DNA of 54,157 nucleotides, taken from the NCBI GenBank assembly GCA_017447815.1, contig JAFSMS010000024.1:1-54157 (forward strand), written 5' to 3'. The stretch is from Bacteroidales bacterium (lineage in GTDB: Bacteria > Bacteroidota > Bacteroidia > Bacteroidales > UBA932). Positions within the stretch are counted from its first letter, which is position 1, and each line of letters starts with the position of its first letter. The notes under the pieces were generated by a model, which saw nothing but the letters and a program-made list of their open reading frames with translations, was not told where the DNA came from and searched no databases. The position numbers and the translations under genes were made by a program. Below are positions 39,274-54,054 of this stretch, piece after piece.

Positions 39274-39307
39274 AACAGCAGCAATCAAGGCATTGGTTGC
39301 TGCTGTT
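39274..39307. terminator. Bidirectional terminator hairpin
   Basis: Arms AACAGCAGCAA (39274-39284) and TTGCTGCTGTT (39297-39307) form an 11-bp stem between the converging guaA and AraC-type genes. It overlaps the last codons of the AraC-type gene. Confidence 0.65.
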
Positions 39308-40859
39308 TCCATTCTGCAGGCGCACAGCCGGTTTCTGCCTTGAAAGACCGGAAGAAACTGTTCTCGCTGGCGAAGCCGGCCTCCTCACTGATAGAGGCGA
39401 GTTTTTTTTCGGGATAGAGTCTCATCTGCTCCTGCGCAAAGCGAACGCGGTAAGCGGTAACAAAGCGCGGGAAGGAAAGCCCCATCTGGCTGTTGATACA
39501 GGCCGAAATATAGGTGGTATTGGTGTGAAGCCGTGTGGCGATATCGGCAATTCGCAGGTCCGGTTTGCGGAACAGTTGCTCCTGTTCCATCAGTTGTACG
39601 ATTCTCTCCTGAAGAGCGGGATAGGTTTTTTCGGGGACCGTTTCCTGCTCGGGATTCTTCCTGCGGCGAAGGCCGAAGAACAGGCCGATGCTGCCCGCTG
39701 CGCCCACAGCCAGCAGCCACCACCATCCTGCAATGTGCTTTTGCTGCGGTTGGGTGTGGAATAGCAACACGTCGCCCAGGGTGTCATAGGTGCTTTCAGC
39801 AAAACCGCCTGCCATCAAATAGTCGCCATCAGGCAGGGCCAGGGCCGCGGCTTTGTGGATGATCGCGTCCAGGGGCTCCGAATAGAAAACTTCCAATCCT
39901 GCAGGGGTCTCCTTGTAATCGATTCGCATCAGGTACAGCCGGCTGTCGGCATCGTACCCCTGCATCCAGGCGGTCCCGGAGGTGGATTCCACCTTCAAGC
40001 CGGCCTCCCACTTCAATGCGCCCCAGGGACCCTTCTCGGGCAGGGGAGAAGCGGTCTCCAGCAGGGAGAAGCGGCCATGGTCGATCAGCAGAATGGCGTG
40101 CTGTCCGTCGGCGTGAAAGACGGGAATCAGATAGGAGTATTCTCCTATGGCGAGGTGGCTTGGCGGGCAGGGCATATGTCCGTTGCCAAGAGACCATTCC
40201 TGCAGCAGCATCTCCTGGAAAGGCTCTCCTTGCAATGGATCCACCCATCCCTCGGGCAGCGCCTCCCCGTAGTTGTCCATATCTCCAAAGATAAAGGCAT
40301 TGTCTTCCGCCGTCAATAAGACATACGGAACGGACCTCGCAAGGCTCGGTTGCTTCACGATGGCGAATTGTTCCCCTGGCGGATAGCTTTCAAGCGCGTC
40401 CGGGGCATACCAGTTGCCGGCTACCAGGATGCTGCCATCAGCCATCTCGGCGGCGGTTGCGTGGGTGCGCTTCTGATCCAGAATGGGTCGTGGGGAAAAA
40501 CTGTGGGTGGCGGGGTCGTACACTTCGATGCCCCAGGTCTGTCCCACGCCGAAGTCCTTTTCGTAGCCTCCGCCCAACATCACTTCTCCGCTGCGCAGTT
40601 TGACGGCAAAGCCAGCATCATGCGGATAGAGGGTCTTGAGCGTATGCCACTTGCCGCGGCGGAAATACTCGGCCGTGTTGGTGGAAACAAAGCCGGTGGT
40701 GTGGCCGCCGAAGACGGTGTATTCCCCATTGCAAAGTTCCAGGGAGTGTGCTTCGCGGGGCGTTTCCAACGCCGGAAGGCGCTCATACGTCATGGGCGTG
40801 AAGGGTACGCCCTTCACATTCACGGACACCGCCAATATGACAGTCAGCAGAAGATTCAT
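39285..40859 (-). CDS. Kelch-like sensor with AraC-type output
   Basis: The protein (524 residues from this ATG) has a signal peptide or anchor (NLLLTVILAVSVNVKG), a periplasmic part of about 350 residues with kelch-like beta-propeller repeats (RTHATAAEMADGSILVAG, EVYDPATHSFSPRP), one membrane helix near residue 385 (WWWLLAVGAAGSIGLFFGL) and a cytoplasmic AraC helix-turn-helix (DLRIADIATRLHTNTTYISA, YPEKKLASISEEAGFASEN). It is a one-component sensor that could report an outside ligand directly to DNA. An earlier TTG in the frame is less likely than this ATG. The ligand and targets are unknown. Confidence 0.8.
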   Translation of the reverse strand: MNLLLTVILAVSVNVKGVPFTPMTYERLPALETPREAHSLELCNGEYTVFGGHTTGFVSTNTAEYFRRGKWHTLKTLYPHDAGFAVKLRSGEVMLGGGYEKDFGVGQTWGIEVYDPATHSFSPRPILDQKRTHATAAEMADGSILVAGNWYAPDALESYPPGEQFAIVKQPSLARSVPYVLLTAEDNAFIFGDMDNYGEALPEGWVDPLQGEPFQEMLLQEWSLGNGHMPCPPSHLAIGEYSYLIPVFHADGQHAILLIDHGRFSLLETASPLPEKGPWGALKWEAGLKVESTSGTAWMQGYDADSRLYLMRIDYKETPAGLEVFYSEPLDAIIHKAAALALPDGDYLMAGGFAESTYDTLGDVLLFHTQPQQKHIAGWWWLLAVGAAGSIGLFFGLRRRKNPEQETVPEKTYPALQERIVQLMEQEQLFRKPDLRIADIATRLHTNTTYISACINSQMGLSFPRFVTAYRVRFAQEQMRLYPEKKLASISEEAGFASENSFFRSFKAETGCAPAEWKQQQPMP

Positions 40860-41035
40860 GTTGTAAATATACAAATTACTCTATTATAATTCCAAACGGG
40901 GTAGGGTGCTCGTTTTGGATGGGAAAAGGGCGAAATGGCTTTTTATGCGCGTTGGAGCGGGGGAGTCTCAAATTATTTTACGAATTGTTAGTTAAAAATC
41001 GTGGAATTGAGACAAGGGAGTGTCGGGATATGTCC

Positions 41036-41066: not shown

Positions 41067-41372
41067 ATGTATTGTAAGTATTGCGGCGCCCAACTTCCTG
41101 ATGGCGCAAAGTTCTGTCCCAAGTGTGGTGGCACGTTAACCCCTGTTTCTGAAGCCCCTGAAGCCGATGCTCCCAAGCCTCGACCCGAACCTCAGCCGGA
41201 GCCGGAGGTGGAAGTGAAGGAAGAGCCCAAGAAGCCCTATATGAGCCTTAAGGAACTGTTTGCGGGAACCAAACTTACCATGGGAGGCGCTCCCATCGTC
41301 AACAAGCGGAATCTCATACTGTTTGCGGTAGCTTTGGTTGTCCTCGTTATACTGGGCCTGTGCAGTCACTGA
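41067..41372 (+). CDS. Tail-anchored zinc ribbon protein
   Basis: The 101-residue protein begins with the zinc ribbon YCKYCGAQLPDGAKFCPKCG, in which two CxxC pairs bind zinc. A Pro/Glu-rich linker follows (PEADAPKPRPEPQPEPEVEV), and a single C-terminal membrane helix (LILFAVALVVLVILGLC) anchors it. An upstream in-frame ATG precedes the promoter box, so the MYCKYCG start is preferred. Such proteins are often partners of membrane systems with unclear roles. It is the first gene of a five-gene cluster. Confidence 0.8.
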   Translation: MYCKYCGAQLPDGAKFCPKCGGTLTPVSEAPEADAPKPRPEPQPEPEVEVKEEPKKPYMSLKELFAGTKLTMGGAPIVNKRNLILFAVALVVLVILGLCSH

Positions 41373-41392
41373 TCCCCATAGCACTATAAACC

Positions 41393-41980
41393 ATGTTTTG
41401 CGAAGACGGGAAATACCGTTGGACCCATCCGTTGGATTTGAGGAAGAATCCGACCATCCTCATCCTGGTGTACAAACTGTTCGGCATCCTCTTCAGTATC
41501 CCGCTCCTCTATCTGGTTGTCCGTGCCGCCATCGAGGGCGACTGGGCCCGGGCCTGGGAAAACAGCATCAAGATCTGGCTCATTGTCATGGCCGTCATTG
41601 CCGTTATCATCTACCTTTCCTACCGGATGGTAATGGGATTCTACGGCGGCAAATTCATCGTCCACTTCACGCTGGACTCCCGGGAGCTGTCCTATCGGCA
41701 GGACGCCGTCCAGGAGGAACGGTCCAGAAAACTCGGCATCCTGGCCTTCCTCGTGGGCCTCTTGAGTGAGGATCCGTCCTCCATGGGCCAGGGCATGCAC
41801 ATGGCTTCCGGCAGTTCCCACACCGCCCCGCTCGACAAGATCCGGCGAATCAGGCCCTGCCGTTCCCAGCAACTCATCAAGCTGAGCCAGGGACTCCTCC
41901 AAAACCGGGTCTACGTGCAGGACGAAGACTTCGATTTGGTTCTTGGCTTCCTGCGCCAGCACTGTCACAACGCAAAATAA
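41393..41980 (+). CDS. Two-helix membrane protein of unknown family
   Basis: The 195-residue protein has two membrane helices (about residues 21-46 and 59-83) followed by a cytoplasmic domain of about 110 residues. That domain has alternating beta-type sequence (FIVHFTLDSRELSYRQDAVQ, IRRIRPCRSQQLIKLSQGLL, RVYVQDEDFDLVLGFLRQHC), which fits a PH-like fold, although I cannot confirm it. The gaps of 20 bases before and 12 bases after tie it to its neighbours. No function is known to me. Confidence 0.7.
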   Translation: MFCEDGKYRWTHPLDLRKNPTILILVYKLFGILFSIPLLYLVVRAAIEGDWARAWENSIKIWLIVMAVIAVIIYLSYRMVMGFYGGKFIVHFTLDSRELSYRQDAVQEERSRKLGILAFLVGLLSEDPSSMGQGMHMASGSSHTAPLDKIRRIRPCRSQQLIKLSQGLLQNRVYVQDEDFDLVLGFLRQHCHNAK

Positions 41981-41992
41981 TCACAGGTCCCT

Positions 41993-44900
41993 ATGAAACA
42001 AACCTCTGTTCAAAACCTTATCATAAACGCCCTTCTGCTTGTGGAGGCGGTGCTGATTGTGTTTTTCCTTCTGCGGATGATAACCAAACCCCGCGACAAG
42101 GAAGCCGGGCCCGTAGTGCCCGACCGTGAGTTGACTATTGCCGAGCAGGAAGGTGAGATCCCCCTGCCGCCTATAGTGGGCAATAGCAAACCTGTGGATG
42201 TGGAGCCCGTCGAGGGCATCCGTATCACGGCTGCGGAAAACGCCCTGGACAAGGACCGGGAGTTTAAGATAACTGCAGTTAGTGATAAGGACTGGGATGC
42301 ACTGGAAAAGAAGCTCTCCGATGTAAGCGAGGATCAAATGCTCTTCTGTTTTGATCTGGACGCCGGCATGGAGCCCGACGAACATCTGCCCGGCGAGTTC
42401 ACCCTCTCCCTGGACTTGGCAAAGATGGGCATTCCGCCCATCCTGCACGACAAGATTTCCGTATGGCGGCAAGCGGGAGACCAGATGTACCAATATACCA
42501 GCTGGCTGCAGAACGGAAAGTTGACCTTCAGCAGCGACCAAAACTGTTTTGTGATTTTTGCCCTTCCGTCAGGCTTGGCTCTTCTTAAAACGGTTGTCGG
42601 AGCCTTGGTTATTTTGGGAGGTGCAACCTACGCATATGAAACCTGGGAGAAGCATTCTGCCACTGGCGACCTATACAAGAACTTCTTCACCATGAATAAA
42701 GATGCGGTGAAGCTCGACATCAAAGACAGCTATGGAGACTTTACGGTGTACTTCCGTTTCAAGGACACCGAATATGCCGACCGCTTTGATACATATAAGG
42801 AAAACTGCGAGAATTTTGTTCGACGAGGCCAGGAACTGGAAGAGAAGGCCGAGACCGAATACGGGCGTCAGGTAGAGGAAAAATACAATGAGGAGCGGGC
42901 CGAATGGACTACTTGGCAGAAAATAATGGGAAGTGCCGAAGCAAAAAGGAAAGCCCGGGCGGCCATCGATAAAGCCGCCATCCTGGCCAAGTTATGCGAA
43001 GAAGACGCGCTATTGAAGCGTTATGCCGAAGGGATGCAACTTCCGCCCAGCATTCGGGACTTGGAGAGCATGCTCAAGTTGGCCAACCGTTATCTTACCG
43101 ATGACCAGGGACTGCGCCCCCAGACGTCTAATCTCGAAGTGGACTTAATCAACACGGGGCCCTCCGGTGAATACAAGCATACGGCTACAAAACAGTCGTA
43201 TATTCTGATTAATTATCCTAAAATGCTCAGTGGAGGCTCCTCGTATGTTCGGAAAGGAAATGGCGAAAATATGCTCCTGACCATCACCCACGAACTATTT
43301 CACCATAGGCAAAAGAACCATAACTGGCCCGCAAAAATGGACTTCCGCTCGGAGGAGACAACAGCGGCATATCAAGAAAATGATGCGGCTCTGTATTACA
43401 TCCGGAAAGGAGAGATTACTACAAACGCCCTCCAGGCGCTCGTAACCGGAAAATTTGTGGGAGGAGAGGGCTTTGATCCGTCACCCAGGGAGAATTATGA
43501 ATTATTTGGACGAGATTTTTCATTTTCTATCTCCACTAACCCCAATTGGGCCTATACTTACGCAGATTTTATGGATTTCCTGCAGCAAAAGAAGGAACTG
43601 AAAAGGGCCGTTAAGGGCGGAGTTATTATGGACCAATACGCTTATACGTCTTCCCACAAGGCCAATTATATGAAATGGTTTGGCATCAAGACGGATAAGG
43701 AGTTTGATGACTGTCTGCAAGAGTTTTGTGAGCAGAGTCTGGGTAAAATCAGGGACCGGCAGGGAAGCGCACAAGTGGCGGAGGACAGTCCGGATTTGGT
43801 TACGAAATCCTATGCGGTTTCCCCTCTGAATCCCGTCGTGAAAATTCCTGTAGTCAGAGGGTCTCTGATTATGCGCACCTTCGATGTGGATGGAGACATA
43901 AAGGGTGGTGCGTTTAACGCCTTCATCACGCTGGATAAAGCGCCCAAATCCCCGGATGAGATTTCTTTCTATACTTCCGCAGATTATTTTAAGACCGATA
44001 CGCAGAAAGGTAATTACTTCAGTGGAGAAAAGAAAGCCTACAGTGGTGCATACTTCCTCCGTACGGCCGGAATCCGCTCTTTTAATGTAGTCGCCCTTTA
44101 TGCCCCCGATGCACCCAAGATTGAAAAAGTGAAAAGGGACTATGTTTCCTTCAAGCTGCCCAAGCCGGAGAGTGTTCTGGTGAAGAACAAGTACATTACC
44201 CGTGCGCTGGTAACCTGTACCTTAAAGGACGGCAGTGAAAGGCGCATCCTGGCCTCTGCCGACAAATTTGGCAAGAAGGTGAAGTGGACCATTGACGGCA
44301 TTGGAGAAAAGGACTTTTCTCTCACGGTGAGATGGATTTCGGAAGGTGAAAACAGGCCGGTCTACGAATCCCCGGACTCTAAACCTGCCGTGCACGGCGC
44401 TATACCGCCAACCCCGGAGGCATCGGCCAACGTAAGCAAGGAAAAGAAGAAGAAAGAAGAAAAGAAGCAGGAGAAAAAGGAAGAGCCGGTCAGTTTCGCC
44501 AATCAGGGTGAGCAGGACAGCCAGGACAAGATGTCGGTCATGGATTCGGACCTCCCCGACATTGTCATAGACAAGCTCTCTATCGTTATTGACTTACCCG
44601 ACAGTGAGGCCGACGGACACCAGTTTGACCATTCACGCGCCCAACAGGTCTATTCCGCACAGGAGCTGAAGGTGACGAAAGAGAAGGATGGCTATCGCGT
44701 AGTTGGTCAGTCTAACCATAATACAGTCCTCAGCACCGGTCACGAAGGAGACTCCGGCTATCCCGGAAGTACATATGAAGACCACATCGATCTGGTTATG
44801 GACGAGGATTTCGTGGCGAAAGAGGGATCCTTCAGCTGGAGCTGGACCTATCACGACCTTCATACATCCGGTCCCAAATCTACTACTTGGTATAAGCAAC

Positions 44901-45127
44901 TATCCACCCTTTCGGCCCGATTCATAAAGGATGCCGACTTCCCTTCTCCCTATGTGACCTCTTCCCACGTGAGTCAAGGATACCTTATGACCACATTGAG
45001 CGCAGCTTGGAAGGGTCAGTTTGGTTCCTACCAAAGAAACTTTGTCCTTACCACGGACGATTTGAAATATTCCAGGAAAGGAAGCAGCAACGTTGAACTA
45101 CACTATGGTTTTAAAGAGGTGAAATGA
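41993..45127 (+). CDS. Large membrane protein with HELFH metallopeptidase motif
   Basis: The 1044-residue protein has an N-terminal helix (residues 9-27), a region with strand-rich sequence, a second helix near residues 195-215 (SGLALLKTVVGALVILGGAT), a charged helical part and then ITHELFHHR, with HExxH at residues 433-437. Glu454 and Glu455 follow within 17-18 residues (SEETTAAY), so a gluzincin-like zinc site is plausible. After this come beta-rich repeats, a highly charged linker (KEKKKKEEKKQEKKEE, near residues 815-835) and a last domain of about 190 residues with many Trp and Tyr. I recognise no family outside the motif. Base composition is lower in GC than in the housekeeping genes. 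Confidence 0.75.
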   Translation: MKQTSVQNLIINALLLVEAVLIVFFLLRMITKPRDKEAGPVVPDRELTIAEQEGEIPLPPIVGNSKPVDVEPVEGIRITAAENALDKDREFKITAVSDKDWDALEKKLSDVSEDQMLFCFDLDAGMEPDEHLPGEFTLSLDLAKMGIPPILHDKISVWRQAGDQMYQYTSWLQNGKLTFSSDQNCFVIFALPSGLALLKTVVGALVILGGATYAYETWEKHSATGDLYKNFFTMNKDAVKLDIKDSYGDFTVYFRFKDTEYADRFDTYKENCENFVRRGQELEEKAETEYGRQVEEKYNEERAEWTTWQKIMGSAEAKRKARAAIDKAAILAKLCEEDALLKRYAEGMQLPPSIRDLESMLKLANRYLTDDQGLRPQTSNLEVDLINTGPSGEYKHTATKQSYILINYPKMLSGGSSYVRKGNGENMLLTITHELFHHRQKNHNWPAKMDFRSEETTAAYQENDAALYYIRKGEITTNALQALVTGKFVGGEGFDPSPRENYELFGRDFSFSISTNPNWAYTYADFMDFLQQKKELKRAVKGGVIMDQYAYTSSHKANYMKWFGIKTDKEFDDCLQEFCEQSLGKIRDRQGSAQVAEDSPDLVTKSYAVSPLNPVVKIPVVRGSLIMRTFDVDGDIKGGAFNAFITLDKAPKSPDEISFYTSADYFKTDTQKGNYFSGEKKAYSGAYFLRTAGIRSFNVVALYAPDAPKIEKVKRDYVSFKLPKPESVLVKNKYITRALVTCTLKDGSERRILASADKFGKKVKWTIDGIGEKDFSLTVRWISEGENRPVYESPDSKPAVHGAIPPTPEASANVSKEKKKKEEKKQEKKEEPVSFANQGEQDSQDKMSVMDSDLPDIVIDKLSIVIDLPDSEADGHQFDHSRAQQVYSAQELKVTKEKDGYRVVGQSNHNTVLSTGHEGDSGYPGSTYEDHIDLVMDEDFVAKEGSFSWSWTYHDLHTSGPKSTTWYKQLSTLSARFIKDADFPSPYVTSSHVSQGYLMTTLSAAWKGQFGSYQRNFVLTTDDLKYSRKGSSNVELHYGFKEVK

Positions 45128-46773
45128 TGAAACGTACTGTGTTCATCCTCCTTACCTTCCTCTTCCCCCTGACCTTATCGGCCCAGGAGATCAGGGACAT
45201 GGACATCCGTGTGGAGGTGGCGCAGAACGGCAGCGCCACGGTGACCACCGACTGGGACGTCACCGTGACCAGCGGCACGGAATGGTACATCCCCGTGGGC
45301 AATCTGGGGCCCATGAAAGTGACTTCCCTCAAGGTGTCCGAAGACGGAAAGACCTTCGTGGACGAGGGGTTCAACTGGGATTCCGGCCGTTCCCTGGAGC
45401 AGAAAAAGAGACGGAGCGGCCTGGTCCGCAAAACCGACGGCGTGGAACTTTGCTGGGGCCAGGGTTCCCTGGGTGACCACAAATGGCGCTCGGTGGTGAA
45501 GATGACCGGCCTGGTGCAGGGCATGACCGACTTTGACGGCTTCAACTTCCAGTTCGTGAACACCCAGATGGTGGCGGGGCCGCAGCACGTGAAGGTGACC
45601 ATCGTTAACAAGACCGGCGGGCCGGAGTGGACATCGGCCGATACCAAAGTCTGGGCCTTCGGCTTCAAGGGCTCCATCTACGTGATAGACGGCGCCGTGG
45701 TGGCCGAGACAAACCGGCCCATGAAAAAGAGCAACCATGTGACCCTCATGGTGCGCTTCGACAAGGGGATGTTTGCCCCCGAAGTAACCAAGAACTCCTC
45801 CTTCGCCGCCATGGAGAAAACGGCCAAGAAGGGCAGCAGCTACAATATCCTCTCCGACACCAAGGCCTGGGGGCCGTATCTGCTGGGTGCCGGCATCCTG
45901 GCCCTTCTCATCTGGATTCTGGGCGCTTTTACCACCGGAAACAAATACCGGAAAAAGCTCTTCGGCACCCGCAAGATCGAGGGCTGGTGCCGCGACGTGC
46001 CGCTGGACGGCAATCTCTTTGCCGCTTATTATGTGGTGGATTCCAGCCGGCGTTTCTATCTGGACGGAAACAAGTATACCCGCAACGTCATGGGCGCAGT
46101 GTTCCTCAAATGGATGCTGGAAGGGAAGGTGAGCATCCGGCCCGGACGCACAAAAAAACGCATCAGAATGGTGCTGCAGGAGAACAGAGCGTTTGATAAC
46201 CCCGTAGAGGAGGAACTCTATGAGATGTGCGTAGATGCTGCTGGAAGGGACCTGATCCTGGAGCCCAGGGAATTCAAGCGCTGGTCCAGGCGCCACTATA
46301 CATACATCCAGAACTGGCCGTACCAGGCTCGGGGCAAGGGACGCAGTTTCCTGCTCCGGAAAGGCTTCATAGACAAGCGCGACCGCGGTACGGAAAAGGG
46401 CTTCGGCCCCATGAAGGAGGTGATTGAATTTAAGCACTTTCTTGAAGATTTCACCATCTTGAACCAGCGGGCGATTCCCGAGGTGCATCTTTGGAACCAG
46501 TACCTGATTTACGCAACGCTGTTTGGCATTGCCGATAAGGTGAGCCGGCAAATGCAGAAATCCTATCCCGTTGACTTTGCCAAGTATTCGCAGGACCATC
46601 TGTTTGAAGGGTTCAGCGTGGCTGCGCTGACATTCCTGGTACAGAAACTAGCCGAAGCGGCCGTGCGCGCAGCCTCCACGCAGGCGGCCCGCGAGAGCGG
46701 CGAAGGCGGCAGCAGTTCCGTTGGCGGTGGCGGCGGTCATTCCGGCGGCGGCGTAGGCGGCGGAAGCCGATAA
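45124..46773 (+). CDS. DUF2207 membrane protein
   Basis: The 549-residue protein has a signal peptide (FILLTFLFPLTLSAQ), an extracytoplasmic beta-rich domain of about 210 residues (EVAQNGSATVTTDWDV), a membrane helix near residue 260 (YLLGAGILALLIWILGAF), a cytoplasmic domain and a C-terminus rich in Gly (GGGGGHSGGGVGGGSR). This layout is that of DUF2207 (YciQ-like) predicted membrane proteins, whose function is unknown. Usual members carry further membrane helices in the middle. The ATG overlaps the stop of the metallopeptidase gene by four bases; a second ATG follows directly. Confidence 0.8.
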   Translation: MMKRTVFILLTFLFPLTLSAQEIRDMDIRVEVAQNGSATVTTDWDVTVTSGTEWYIPVGNLGPMKVTSLKVSEDGKTFVDEGFNWDSGRSLEQKKRRSGLVRKTDGVELCWGQGSLGDHKWRSVVKMTGLVQGMTDFDGFNFQFVNTQMVAGPQHVKVTIVNKTGGPEWTSADTKVWAFGFKGSIYVIDGAVVAETNRPMKKSNHVTLMVRFDKGMFAPEVTKNSSFAAMEKTAKKGSSYNILSDTKAWGPYLLGAGILALLIWILGAFTTGNKYRKKLFGTRKIEGWCRDVPLDGNLFAAYYVVDSSRRFYLDGNKYTRNVMGAVFLKWMLEGKVSIRPGRTKKRIRMVLQENRAFDNPVEEELYEMCVDAAGRDLILEPREFKRWSRRHYTYIQNWPYQARGKGRSFLLRKGFIDKRDRGTEKGFGPMKEVIEFKHFLEDFTILNQRAIPEVHLWNQYLIYATLFGIADKVSRQMQKSYPVDFAKYSQDHLFEGFSVAALTFLVQKLAEAAVRAASTQAARESGEGGSSSVGGGGGHSGGGVGGGSR

Positions 46774-46786
46774 TAAAACAACGACT

Positions 46787-47158
46787 ATGATAAAGAAGCT
46801 ATTACTCATTGTTTGGGCCGGCATCCTGGCTGGAACCCTCACGGCACAGGCCCAGAACTGGACGCTGTCCCAGACCAAAACTTATGGAGCCGGCGGTGCC
46901 TTATCCGAGAATCATTCGCTGACTATCGTCAAAGAATCCATGAAGATTGCCGCCATCGTAGGACGCGGAACAAAAAAAGATTTCATAGACCTGTTTTTCC
47001 TCCTCAAACAGTTTTCACTTCGCGAAATATTGGATTTGTACCTGCAGAAATATCCGGATGGATCAGTCTTTATTGCCATGAAAAGCCTGTCATACTTTGA
47101 AGATGCAGAGCCGGACCCCTGGTCAGCCTCGAAAAAGTGGGCTAAAAAGCGTAAATGA
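46787..47158 (+). pseudogene. Chimera of a secreted protein and AbiEii C-terminal part
   Basis: The 123-residue frame begins with a signal peptide (IKKLLLIVWAGILAGTLTAQ) and about 28 further residues of a secreted protein. From residue 52 (46940 on) it reads MKIAAIVGRGTKKDFIDLFF and YLQKYPDGSVFIAMKSLSYF, which is the C-terminal block of AbiEii/AbiGii nucleotidyltransferase toxins (KIxAIxGRGxKKDFIDL). The toxin part lacks its catalytic N-terminal half. The join looks like a deletion fusing two genes in frame. It overlaps the convergent DUF456 gene by 17 bases. Confidence 0.7.
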
Positions 47159-49815: not shown

Positions 49816-49835
49816 TACGGCATTAAATAATAGTG

Positions 49836-50468
49836 ATGTACCAGAAGAATCCATTATTGCAATTTGCCGGTATCCCCGTATCGGGAGCAGACATCAAGTC
49901 CTGCTTCCAAAACCTCGCGTCACCGGAAAAGAAGATACAAGCGCTGGAGAAAAGCGGCGAACTGGTCCGACTTAAGCGAGACCTCTATATCGTCAATGAG
50001 GAGTTTAGCGGAATGGTTACGGACGTGAGACTCTGTGCCAATCACCTATACGGCCCATCTTACGTTTCCTTCCAATGGGCGCTTCGCTATTATGGAATGA
50101 TTCCGGAACAGGTCTTCCTGATGACATCGGCAACCACCAAGCGTTCCCGTATGTTTGAAACCCCTATCGGGAACTTCAGTTATGTCCAGGTCACTACAAA
50201 ATACTTCCCCATCGGCGTAGAAAGCAGACAGGAAGAGGGTATCGGCTTCCTTATGGCCAGCCGGGAGAAGGCCCTGTGTGACACCATTTTACTGGACAAC
50301 TTTGTTCCCCACCAGTCTGTGAAATCTTTGGCCGTGTACCTTGAAGAGGATATGAGGCTGGATATGGATATCCTTTCAGAATTGGATGCCGATATTGTCC
50401 AGCAGTGCGCCCAAGCCGGACGAAAGACACAAATATTCAAGAATCTGATAAAGCTAATAAGGCAATGA
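49836..50468 (+). CDS. AbiEi-type antitoxin
   Basis: The 210-residue protein has an N-terminal winged helix (LASPEKKIQALEKSGELVRL, then KRDLYIVNE) and a C-terminal domain with YGPSYVSFQWALRYYGMIPE and REKALCDTILLDN. This is the AbiEi transcriptional regulator and antitoxin of the type IV AbiE system, which represses its own operon and neutralises the AbiEii nucleotidyltransferase. A GTG one codon earlier could also serve as start. It overlaps the toxin gene by four bases, as in intact systems, but the toxin gene is broken. Confidence 0.85.
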   Translation: MYQKNPLLQFAGIPVSGADIKSCFQNLASPEKKIQALEKSGELVRLKRDLYIVNEEFSGMVTDVRLCANHLYGPSYVSFQWALRYYGMIPEQVFLMTSATTKRSRMFETPIGNFSYVQVTTKYFPIGVESRQEEGIGFLMASREKALCDTILLDNFVPHQSVKSLAVYLEEDMRLDMDILSELDADIVQQCAQAGRKTQIFKNLIKLIRQ

Positions 50469-50665
50469 CAACATACGAGTCAATGCTGGCCGCTTATAGA
50501 AATGATAGCGGCAGCACGGCAACAAAGAACGCCGAGCAGGAGGTGTGCCAGAAGATTGCACTGGCCGGTCTGCATCGGGGCGGCTTTTTTGACCACGCCG
50601 CATTTTATGGCGGCACTTGTCTGCGTATGTTTTACGGCCTCCCCAGGTTTTCTTATCGCAAGTAA
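50465..50665 (+). pseudogene. AbiEii toxin gene, cut by the RIT element
   Basis: The first 63 residues are AbiEii-like, running up to AFYGGTCLRMFYGLPRFS, the first half of the nucleotidyltransferase motif (GGTxLR then FSxDxD). The left end of the mobile element then begins, and it supplies the codons TAT CGC AAG and a TAA stop. The two catalytic Asp residues and the rest of the protein are lost. The last five bases of the window (CTCAG), beyond the element, may be the start of the displaced 3-prime part. Confidence 0.85.
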
Positions 50666-50794: not shown

Positions 50795-52033
50795 ATGCAT
50801 CCAAAAACAACAAACATCAAAGAACTCGTGCGGGAGTGCGAGTTCTTTCTGCGCCAACTGAACTATTCAGAGGCCTGCATTGCAGTACACCGTCGGCAGT
50901 GGAATGACGGGATCATTCCCTATATGGCATCGAGGGGTATTGTCGAATACAATCCGATTATTGGCGCCGATTATTTGGCGTGTGCCACGAAGAACTCAGC
51001 GCCATCAACAAAACGTGCTCGCACCCGTAACATCCACATCCTTGATGAATACCTGGCAACAGGCAACGTCAGGAGGCGCATTGTTCATCTTGTAGACCAC
51101 ACATTACCTGGCGAGATTGGGAAAATTGCCCAATCATATTTGGCGTACATGAAAGAAATAAGGCGGTCTGAAGGGACTATTCTCAATCACCAAAGAATGT
51201 TGAGCTACTTCATCGTCGGGCTGAAATCTAAAGGGAAGGAGCACCTTTCTGACATTGACGAGCGTGACATACTTGACTTTGTTGACAATACGCAAGTTGC
51301 GAAGGATCATCACTTTTATACAATCCGCCAGTTCTGCAAATACCTTTATGAGCACGGACACGTGACCAGAAATCTTGGCTATGTAGTCGAACGCGCGAAC
51401 TTCCCTCAGAAAGAGAAACTTCCGTCCGTATATAGTGCAGAAGAAGTCAAGCAGATAGAATCTTCGGTCGAACAGTCCAGCAAGGTGGGAAAGCGTGACT
51501 ATGCAATCCTGCTCTTGGCATCAAGGTTAGGGCTTCGAGTATCAGACATTGCCGGTCTTACATTCGACAATATAGACTGGGACAATAACAGGATCGTCCT
51601 CAGGCAGCATAAGACTGGGAACCCCGTTGAGTTGCCGCTTTTACCAGAAGTCGGCGAAGCTATTGTCAATTACCTTCGCTATAGCCGTCCGGTATCAAAT
51701 CTTCCCAATGTGTTCCTGTCTGCATGTGCTCCGTATCGTCCAATGAATAGGCTCGGACTTAATGGCGTAGTTCTGCGAATCATGAGGGGTTCCGGGGTAA
51801 ATCTTAAAGGCAGGAAGTTTGGTCCTCACGCCATGCGCCATTCGCTTGCAAGCAACATGTTGAAGTCCGGAGCCTCCATATCCATCATCTCAGAGGCTTT
51901 GGGGCATGAAAGCAGCGAAACGACGCGTGAGTATCTGAGGATTGACGTTACCAGTCTGGCAAAATGTGCTCTGGACGTCACTCCGGTACCAGAATCTTTC
52001 TACAATCAGAATGGAGGGGCGTTCTATGATTAA
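50795..52033 (+). CDS. ritA: Tyrosine recombinase, first of the RIT trio
   Basis: The 412-residue protein has an N-terminal SAM-like core-binding domain and a C-terminal catalytic domain. The conserved residues are Arg248 in GLRVSD, Lys in RQHKTGN, the box HAMRHSLASN, His in EALGHESS and the Tyr nucleophile in TTREYLRI, so it should be active. It acts in site-specific strand exchange, together with the two following recombinases. The N-terminal part (LVRECEFFLRQLNYSEACI) is longer than in phage integrases. It overlaps the second gene by eight bases. Confidence 0.9.
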   Translation: MHPKTTNIKELVRECEFFLRQLNYSEACIAVHRRQWNDGIIPYMASRGIVEYNPIIGADYLACATKNSAPSTKRARTRNIHILDEYLATGNVRRRIVHLVDHTLPGEIGKIAQSYLAYMKEIRRSEGTILNHQRMLSYFIVGLKSKGKEHLSDIDERDILDFVDNTQVAKDHHFYTIRQFCKYLYEHGHVTRNLGYVVERANFPQKEKLPSVYSAEEVKQIESSVEQSSKVGKRDYAILLLASRLGLRVSDIAGLTFDNIDWDNNRIVLRQHKTGNPVELPLLPEVGEAIVNYLRYSRPVSNLPNVFLSACAPYRPMNRLGLNGVVLRIMRGSGVNLKGRKFGPHAMRHSLASNMLKSGASISIISEALGHESSETTREYLRIDVTSLAKCALDVTPVPESFYNQNGGAFYD

Positions 52034-53039
52034 CTACACCTACAAGAGCGTCTTCGCTCGTTTCTTCCTTGACTTCATACATATGAAGGATGCCATGGGA
52101 TACAGGACTCCGAAAATTGAGTACATATTCAAGGAACTCGATATCTTCTTTTCCAAAGAGACCGTAAAAGAACCGATTATCACGAAGCAGCTGATTGTAA
52201 AATGGCGGGGGGAGAAGGTGAATGAATCGGAACGGACATTGTATGACAAGTGGTCCATCATATCGCAGTTCTCCCGCTATATGGGGCATCTTGGCTATCC
52301 CTGTTATGTGCCTCCTATGCCGCTGAAGCACTTTAACCAAAACTCATTCATCCCATATATCTTTACCCATGAGCAGATACAAGCAATCTTCGATGCGAGT
52401 GACAGGCTCACAATGATATATAACAACATGGACAGCAAGATGTTCTGCGTTCCTGCGATGCTACGGCTTCTGTACGGGACTGGTTTGAGAATCGGGGAGG
52501 CCATCTCATTGACTAATGGCGATGTGGACTTTGAGGAAGGGACCATCCTGCTCCGGAAAACCAAAAATCAGCAGCAGCGTATCGTAATAATGTCACCTTC
52601 CTTGAAGGAGGTGTTGCGGCAATACGTGTCTTACAAGGGGAAACTGCCAATCCGCCACACGTTCGACAAGGACGCTCCTTTCTTTATATCTCCCAGCGGT
52701 TCCCCTGTAAGCAAGTGCGCATTCTATGGATGGTACAGAAAGCTACTACGGGCATGTAACATCCCTTTTATCGGTGACAACCGGGGGCCGCGAGTGCATG
52801 ACATCAGGCATACTTTTGCAGTTCATTCACTCATGAAACTAGTTAAGGAAGGTGTTGACATCTACTGCGCCCTTCCAATCCTTGCTACATACATGGGCCA
52901 TAAAACTTTGATGGGAACAGAACGGTATGTCCGGTTAACGCAGGAAATGTATCCAGACATCATCCATTTGGAGGAGTCCGTTTCCTCATATGTCTTTCCC
53001 TCTATCGCATTAATGAAACGAGCCGATGAAAACGAATGA
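52026..53039 (+). CDS. ritB: Tyrosine recombinase, second of the RIT trio
   Basis: The protein from this ATG has 337 residues; the frame is open further upstream inside the first gene, but MINYTYKSVFARFFLDFIHM is a normal recombinase start. Catalytic residues appear as GTGLRIGEA, KTKNQQQR, the box VHDIRHTFAVHSL, YMGHKTLMGT and the nucleophile in TERYVRL. The order of the three genes and the overlaps of 8 and 14 bases are those of a RIT element, in which all three recombinases are thought to be needed. Confidence 0.9.
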   Translation: MINYTYKSVFARFFLDFIHMKDAMGYRTPKIEYIFKELDIFFSKETVKEPIITKQLIVKWRGEKVNESERTLYDKWSIISQFSRYMGHLGYPCYVPPMPLKHFNQNSFIPYIFTHEQIQAIFDASDRLTMIYNNMDSKMFCVPAMLRLLYGTGLRIGEAISLTNGDVDFEEGTILLRKTKNQQQRIVIMSPSLKEVLRQYVSYKGKLPIRHTFDKDAPFFISPSGSPVSKCAFYGWYRKLLRACNIPFIGDNRGPRVHDIRHTFAVHSLMKLVKEGVDIYCALPILATYMGHKTLMGTERYVRLTQEMYPDIIHLEESVSSYVFPSIALMKRADENE

Positions 53040-54054
53040 CTTTTCCAAATACCTGTCAGGCTTCTTCACGGAGTATCTGTCATCGGAGCGTGGCGTAAGC
53101 CACAACACAATACGTTCGTACAGTGAGACGTTCGCTGCGTTCCTGGACTACATGGGGTCCATGCAGCATGTGGCCGCTGAGCGGTTGACGCTGAATCACT
53201 TGACACGAAAGAGTGTTGTCTCGTTCCTGGACTGGCTACAGGAACAGAAAGGAAGTAAAGACTCAACCCGTAACCAGCGTCTGGCCGCCATCCACGCATT
53301 CGCCAAATATATGCAGTACGAGGATGTCGCTCACCTGGAGCAGTGGCAAAGCATCCTCTCCATCAAAATCAAAAAAACGGTCAAGCGCAGTGTGAACTAC
53401 CTTTCAACGGAGGGCATCAAAGCCCTTCTGGAACAAATCCCGCAGGAAACCCGCACTGGCCGACGGGACTTAGCAATGATTACATTACTGTATGGTAGCG
53501 GAGCAAGAGTACAGGAGTTGGTGGACTTGACTCCTGAGGATCTGCATCTGGATAATCCATGCTATGTCACCCTTTTCGGGAAAGGACAGAAAAAGCGACT
53601 CATCCCTCTTCAAGGACAACTTATCGGACTACTGAAGTCATACATGGTCGAGAATCGCCTGGATGTCTTGTCCGCCAATCACCAGCCTTTATTCCAGAAC
53701 AACAGGGGCGGCAAACTCACAACAGCCGGGGTCGCATATATCCTGTCTCAATACTTTGCAATGGCGAAAACCGCACACCCGGAACTCTTTCCGGAACGAA
53801 TCAGCCCGCATAGCCTGCGGCATAGCAAAGCCATGCACCTGTTACAAGCCGGGGTCAATCTGGTCTATATCCGCGACATCTTGGGACATGTGTCCATACA
53901 AACAACGGAAATCTATGCTCGCGCCGACTCGAAGCAGAAACGGCTTGCATTGGAATCGGCATATACTGATGTGCTTCCCGAAGTGGAAAACAAAACCTCC
54001 TGGGAGAAAGACTCTGACTTAAGAATGTGGCTGAAGAGTCTGGGGAAGCAGTGA
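53026..54054 (+). CDS. ritC: Tyrosine recombinase, third of the RIT trio
   Basis: The 342-residue protein has an N-terminal core-binding domain (YLSSERGVSHNTIRSYSETF) and a catalytic domain with YGSGARVQELVDL, FGKGQKKRLIPL, the box SPHSLRHSKAMHL, DILGHVSIQTTEIY and its Tyr nucleophile in TEIYARA. All catalytic positions are intact. The protein is closest in style to XerC/XerD-like recombinases. It starts 14 bases before the end of the second gene and is followed by the right end of the element after 70 bases. Confidence 0.9.
   Translation: MKTNDFSKYLSGFFTEYLSSERGVSHNTIRSYSETFAAFLDYMGSMQHVAAERLTLNHLTRKSVVSFLDWLQEQKGSKDSTRNQRLAAIHAFAKYMQYEDVAHLEQWQSILSIKIKKTVKRSVNYLSTEGIKALLEQIPQETRTGRRDLAMITLLYGSGARVQELVDLTPEDLHLDNPCYVTLFGKGQKKRLIPLQGQLIGLLKSYMVENRLDVLSANHQPLFQNNRGGKLTTAGVAYILSQYFAMAKTAHPELFPERISPHSLRHSKAMHLLQAGVNLVYIRDILGHVSIQTTEIYARADSKQKRLALESAYTDVLPEVENKTSWEKDSDLRMWLKSLGKQ

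Follow-up and report, generated by a model that had tools for sequence, protein, structure and literature searches.

The window analysed here is one entire contig of 54,157 bases (JAFSMS010000024.1), from the 2.5-Mb, 118-contig assembly GCA_017447815.1 of a Bacteroidales bacterium, and its forward strand carries four closely spaced genes whose products we call P1 to P4. The third product, P3 (1044 residues; 41993..45127), is predicted to be a membrane-anchored, gluzincin-type zinc metallopeptidase, and it ends in a mosaic tip, which is unrelated in species whose trunks are similar. We tentatively propose, at a little short of an even chance, that P3 belongs to an envelope zinc-peptidase module seated on a zinc-ribbon and P2 platform in one Bacteroidales genus. 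A preliminary description of the window had proposed that the four genes form an undescribed system; the metallopeptidase part of that proposal held, the strict four-gene system did not, and a looser modular set with a mosaic tip was found.

The peptidase assignment is carried by an alignment of seven P3 proteins from six genomes (the window, G051, G478, G732 with two copies, G735 and G465). A metal site had been suggested from the motif HELFH (residues 433-437; 43289..43303, forward strand) and Glu454/455. Residues H433, E434, H437 and E455 were found to be invariant in all seven sequences, as was E462, within a region (345-600) in which 16 of 256 positions are invariant and the median pairwise identity is 26%; the chance of four given positions there all being invariant is approximately 1.5e-5. 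The motif reads HELFH in six of the proteins and HEIGH in that of G465, so that HExxH is kept throughout, and the second His is separated from Glu455 (codon 43355-43357) by 17 residues, or by 18 in G465. Gluzincins are defined by HExxH plus a downstream Glu, and the spacing HExxH-x17/18-E fits this class. As position 454 is Glu in only two of the seven sequences, the candidate ligand is Glu455 and not Glu454. The metallopeptidase assignment of P3 stands because HExxH and Glu455 are kept in every homologue, and P3 would accordingly be expected to bind zinc and to cleave proteins. That P3 lacks a recognised family was borne out, with no significant match in Pfam, NCBIfam, PHROGs or PDB sequences (P2 and P3 fell below every Pfam cut-off, with best E values of 0.002 and 0.01 respectively), and PDB sequence searches returned nothing convincing. 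Weak Pfam matches made by individual P3 proteins (Sialidase N-terminal, 0.0088; MtxA Ig-like, 0.018; Zn_peptidase_2, 0.082) were not used.

The C-terminal linker and tip of P3 (44393..45124, forward strand) behave differently from the trunk. Between the window and its closest relative, G051 (a Bacteroidales metagenome assembly, isolate RUI178), trunk regions are 68, 40, 49, 47 and 55% identical and the last 200 or so residues have no detectable similarity (z score 2.4, exceeded by the best of 200 shuffles). In blocks of 50 aligned residues, P3 identity fell from 86% in the first block (up to residue 94) to 18-26% over the last 180 residues; P2 is 85% identical between the same two genomes, and P4 83% over the 86 residues present in G051. 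Dissimilar tips were also found between G478 and the first G732 copy (trunk 48-66% identical; tip z 0.7) and between the two G732 copies (trunk 39-59%; tip z 1.1). The second G732 copy and G465, with trunks just 17-30% identical, have a tip in common (z 14.4; BLAST E 2e-8 to 3e-10; hhalign 95% over 74 columns), and this was the one clear tip match among 21 pairs, the G051-G735 comparison (z 4.7) lying below its best shuffle. As judged from these comparisons the tip is either exchanged between species or diverging very fast, and exchange is favoured because a common tip is found on such divergent trunks. The variation of the tip suggests that its target is not the same from one species to another, and the tip may serve in recognising it.

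P3 has an N-terminal transmembrane segment, a conserved domain (approximately 62-205), a helical stretch, the zincin-type region (approximately 345-600), an FnIII-like domain (approximately 696-799), a charged linker and the mosaic tip (approximately 840-1044), all limits except those of the FnIII part being taken from the alignment and not from structure. AlphaFold2 prediction of residues 46-800 on two sequences gave a mean predicted local distance difference test score (pLDDT) of 38.6, in which only the FnIII-like part was usable, and the VIA rows for P3 cover that part alone. P3 had been described as a two-helix protein; a second hydrophobic stretch (190-208) with mean hydropathy above 1.6 is present in six of the seven sequences (peaks 1.62-2.16) and missing from the G735 homologue, which nonetheless aligns in its N-terminal and peptidase regions; the two-helix description is therefore uncertain. 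Most likely the N terminus of P3 is cytoplasmic and the remainder extracytoplasmic.

P3 homologues were confined to the window's own genus in the searches made. Eight of 400 genus genomes gave a match and six, including the window's own, were kept, the weak matches in G508 (17.7 bits) and G524 (13.0 bits) being rejected because they cover only short stretches and the proteins are otherwise unlike P3. There is a single match in the window's own genome. A P3 query against 101 genomes matched two (the window and G051), a two-sequence profile against 393 genomes of the order matched three (two discarded as chance, at 17.4 and 14.3 bits), and a profile of the N-terminal domain against 149 family genomes matched two, both through P3. 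With the seven-sequence profile only the window's genome was recovered from 247 genomes of the phylum, and none of the 246 other Bacteroidota. A pattern scan of the species collection returned the G051 record only, and none was found in viral contigs, plasmids or phages; the pattern scan and tblastn are sensitive to close relatives only, and homologues in Bacillota may exist.

The platform on which P3 is proposed to sit is represented in the window by P1 and P2. P1 (41067..41372, forward strand; 101 residues) has an N-terminal zinc ribbon with two knuckles (CxxC-x10-CxxC; Zn_Ribbon_1, 38.2 bits, cut-off 25) and a C-terminal transmembrane tail at its hydropathy peak (residues 83-101), in agreement with its earlier description as a tail-anchored zinc ribbon protein. 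P2 (41393..41980, forward strand; 195 residues) has a small domain after two transmembrane helices, which AlphaFold2 placed at residues 20-48 and 51-84 (block pLDDT 69-84 over residues 21-80, 31-57 elsewhere, mean 56.3). A possible PH-like fold in P2, for which we take YcxB and bacterial PH-like proteins as the comparison, would fall after residue 80, in a low-confidence part of the model, and of the 49 Pfam families listed for 19 P2 members, the first 25 include no PH-like or YcxB model.

Of 200 genus genomes, 21 have a match to the P2 family; in G556 and G540 the match is short and partial, and these two loci were not fetched. At the 18 P2 loci read, which exclude the window and G051, and taking "near" as within three genes, a zinc-ribbon gene lies near P2 at 10 and a zinc ribbon is fused to the N terminus of a P2 copy at seven; a zinc ribbon is also fused to P3 in three of the seven P3 proteins. 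On this sequence evidence the zinc ribbon is the link between the P3 and P2 sets, and its partnership with P3 is supported by the fusions. An unrelated protein, which we call BIG (approximately 1270-1480 residues by mechanical open reading frame), lies near P2 at 11 of the 18 loci. BIG was found in 12 of 200 genus genomes, 11 of which also have P2, a co-occurrence that assumes an identical 200-genome sample and was obtained with a BIG profile made from P2-linked copies. Kinship of P3 and BIG was rejected (profile comparison, 0.2% probability), the P3 tips did not match the BIG N terminus, and no Pfam match above cut-off was obtained for the three BIG proteins scanned (from the L092-L100, L106, L108 and L110 set), except for the zinc ribbon of one. 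BIG copies number up to three per genome, and their C-terminal part is conserved with a D-x-D-x-T motif. Outside the phylum, a zinc ribbon-P2 fusion (E 1e-29) occurs in a record of Acetoanaerobium (Clostridia), together with a protein that matches BIG over its C-terminal part (BLAST E 2e-19); P3 was not found in it, a weak negative from one record. This record (NZ_CP154629.1, Acetoanaerobium noterae) is 2.6 Mb and chromosome-sized, and is labelled a plasmid. Zinc ribbon plus P2, often with BIG, is thus a recurring set, and zinc ribbon plus P3 is another link; P3 may be one of several giant proteins on a common platform.

The open reading frames and gaps of the four genes were recovered as previously claimed, with intergenic distances of 20, 12 and -4 bases, the P3 stop and P4 start sharing ATGA. 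P4 (45124..46773, forward strand; 549 residues) was likewise upheld as a DUF2207 protein, with DUF2207 at 25.4 bits (cut-off 24.4) and DUF2207_C at 64.3 bits (cut-off 33), a signal-peptide-like N terminus, one transmembrane segment near 253-271 by hydropathy and a glycine-rich C terminus. A conserved four-gene order was not found. P2 and DUF2207 adjoin P3 in two of the six P3 genomes, the window and G051, and in the latter the order is P3-P2-P4; no match to P2, DUF2207 or LemA was obtained by tblastn at the P3 loci of G478, G732, G735 and G465. P2 is present in four of the six genomes, lying on a separate contig from P3 in G478 and G735. The proposed system was to be refuted by joint occurrence of the genes in the window alone, which is largely the case for their order, or by a motif that homologues do not keep, which is not the case for HExxH.

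At 19 other DUF2207 loci of the genus (20 regions were fetched and L071, with no BLAST match to P4, was excluded), LemA lies directly upstream of DUF2207 at 13, one of which was checked by Pfam, and another locus is cut on that side; neither P3 nor P2 was found within the stretches fetched. As the usual partner of DUF2207 in the genus is LemA, the link of DUF2207 to P3 is a local one. The closest paralogues of P4 are LemA-linked (44, 41 and 41% identical), a fourth at 40% (L057) is not, and no LemA stands directly beside P4, which is flanked by P3 and a signal-peptide stub. The probable origin of P4 is recruitment from the LemA-DUF2207 pairs.

Divergent from the cluster is a gene for an AraC-type regulator that may include a Kelch-like propeller (39285..40874, reverse strand; HTH_18, 52.7 bits; Kelch model, 16.7 bits, below cut-off), a possible local regulator. 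The genome has six long copies of this AraC-Kelch family, one cut by a contig end, and three of the six (in the window and on contigs 12 and 80) lie beside zinc-ribbon, P2, BIG or DUF2207-like genes, the DUF2207-like gene of contig 80 being recognised by BLAST with no Pfam match. In G735 an AraC-Kelch gene is divergent from the zinc ribbon-P3 gene. Since the family is paralogous, a role as specific regulator was rejected and its position beside these genes is no more than suggestive. Counts of promoter and terminator patterns differed from those of shuffled sequence by no more than approximately one standard deviation (7 versus 4.9 and 10 versus 8.1). Elsewhere, the AraC-Kelch regulators of loci L132, L134 and L135 (genomes G000 and G008) adjoin genes for lipoprotein-like proteins with a similar terminal RPV motif, which perhaps reflects a wider pairing of sensor-regulators with surface proteins.

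In the arrangement that we propose, small zinc ribbons would lie on the cytoplasmic face of the membrane, either carried by their own membrane stalk (P1) or forming part of a fused partner, and P2 would span the membrane with its two helices and keep both termini in the cytoplasm. This platform would carry a giant protein, P3 here and BIG at other P2 loci, and P2 and P3 may form a complex and work jointly. P3, a membrane-anchored gluzincin-type peptidase, would have an extracytoplasmic body, so that its cleavage of proteins or peptides would take place in the periplasm or at the cell surface, its FnIII-like stalk bearing an exchangeable tip that selects or contacts the target. P4 would be the recruited DUF2207 member, and the AraC-Kelch regulator may control some of the loci. 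A bolder version, which we consider quite unlikely, is an undescribed envelope system in which the platform displays interchangeable giants (zinc peptidase or BIG), with tips exchanged as in recognition or conflict systems and the P2-BIG form extending from Bacteroidales to Clostridia.

Several observations weigh against the proposed module. P3 adjoins P2 in only two of its six genomes, and P2 was not detected in G732 and G465, which carry P3 and are 96 and 99% complete. Neither P3 nor DUF2207 is near P2 at any of the 18 other loci, at seven of which neither zinc ribbon nor BIG is near P2 either, and since zinc ribbons join many proteins the shared fusions tie P2 to P3 only indirectly. These counts, with the four P3 genomes lacking P2 or DUF2207 beside P3 and the frequent LemA-DUF2207 pairing, favour chance neighbourhood, in which P3, P2 and P4 would stand in one operon in two species and P3 would have no joint function with the others; we regard this as a real if doubtful possibility, in view of the reunion of P3, P2 and DUF2207 in G051 in rearranged form, the P3-P4 overlap and the presence of P2 in four of the six P3 genomes. 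On the side of the peptidase, P3 matches none of the known zincin families significantly (Zn_peptidase_2 was matched by one member of seven, E 0.082), and block pLDDT in the peptidase region was 24-42 on two sequences; as no usable peptidase domain was obtained, no metal site is visible. P3 could then be an adhesin or structural surface protein whose HExxH domain is a relic or purely structural, as its size, multiple domains, FnIII-like part and the HEIGH variant would allow, but the invariance of the four presumed catalytic residues at so low a pairwise identity makes this very improbable.

The second hydrophobic stretch, if a real transmembrane segment, would place the peptidase in the cytoplasm. 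Both stretches of P3 would then cross the membrane, leaving the N-terminal domain external and the peptidase region, FnIII-like domain and tip cytoplasmic, as a counterpart to HtpX, a membrane quality-control peptidase. The stretch recurs in all P3 sequences but one, and lysine and arginine around the first transmembrane segment of the window P3 number four after and two before (in G465 they are even), which favours this topology; the absence of the stretch from the otherwise alignable G735 protein speaks against it, as do the FnIII-like domain and changing tip, features more usual in exposed proteins, and we think it unlikely. Of similarly low probability is a conflict or recognition system, in which P3, and perhaps BIG, would be alternative effectors against competitors, phages or host molecules with the tip under diversifying exchange. 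The mosaic tips, the patchy distribution of P3 (six of 400 genomes), the existence of two kinds of giant protein and the multiple BIG copies would suit it; against it, no toxin occurs in the list of 20 Pfam families obtained for the seven P3 sequences, linked immunity genes not having been searched for nor a defence library scanned. Polymorphic toxin systems have exchangeable C-terminal toxin domains and linked immunity genes; P3 has a mosaic tip, and no toxin is among the families listed for its members.

The cluster resembles other known systems in part. Like HtpX-type metallopeptidases, P3 is a predicted membrane-anchored HExxH peptidase, possibly of quality control, but Pfam does not place it in a family of that kind, and it more likely has a large extracytoplasmic body than the form of a multi-helix membrane protein; its likeness to gluzincins lies in the invariant residues of HExxH-x17/18-E and comes without a significant sequence match to a known family. 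LemA-DUF2207 pairs, noted in PMC12631010, also place a DUF2207 membrane protein within a small envelope cluster, whereas P4 is adjoined by the zinc ribbon, P2 and P3 set instead of LemA. The preliminary description held that none of the four proteins has a known role, which is true with one exception, a DUF2207 knock-out in Streptococcus mutans that alters acid and oxidative stress tolerance and biofilm (PMC10457818). Zinc ribbons joined to transmembrane segments are found in PspA/PspC envelope-stress contexts, as in Bacillus subtilis ydjFGHL (PMC11237479), but no PspA, band-7, TPM or PspC family was found among the eight proteins of the region scanned. The excerpt of PMC12419801, on zincins and zinc ribbons in lipid and conflict systems, contains nothing that matches this cluster, and the titles and abstracts among the literature matches listed contain no description of the four-gene cluster.

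Just downstream of P4 (46787-47158, forward strand), the signal-peptide stub at 46787 had no significant match to BIG and is followed by what looks like a C-terminal part of an AbiEii-type toxin gene (Pfam 13.0 bits, below cut-off). An AbiEii-type N-terminal part (50468-50665, forward strand; 27.8 bits, above cut-off) follows an AbiEi-like antitoxin gene (49833-50468; 36.6 bits, below its cut-off), and the separated parts look like one rearranged gene or two copies. Beside these pieces, three tyrosine recombinase genes (Phage_integrase) lie in a row with successive overlaps (50795-54054, forward strand), possibly the end of a mobile element.

If the proposed module is real, P3 would add a family of membrane zinc peptidases that has no recognised relatives and bears a swappable tip, and orphan zinc-ribbon membrane genes would be explained as a platform for large interchangeable envelope proteins. 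The exchange of tips would point to selection at the interface with competitors, phages or hosts.

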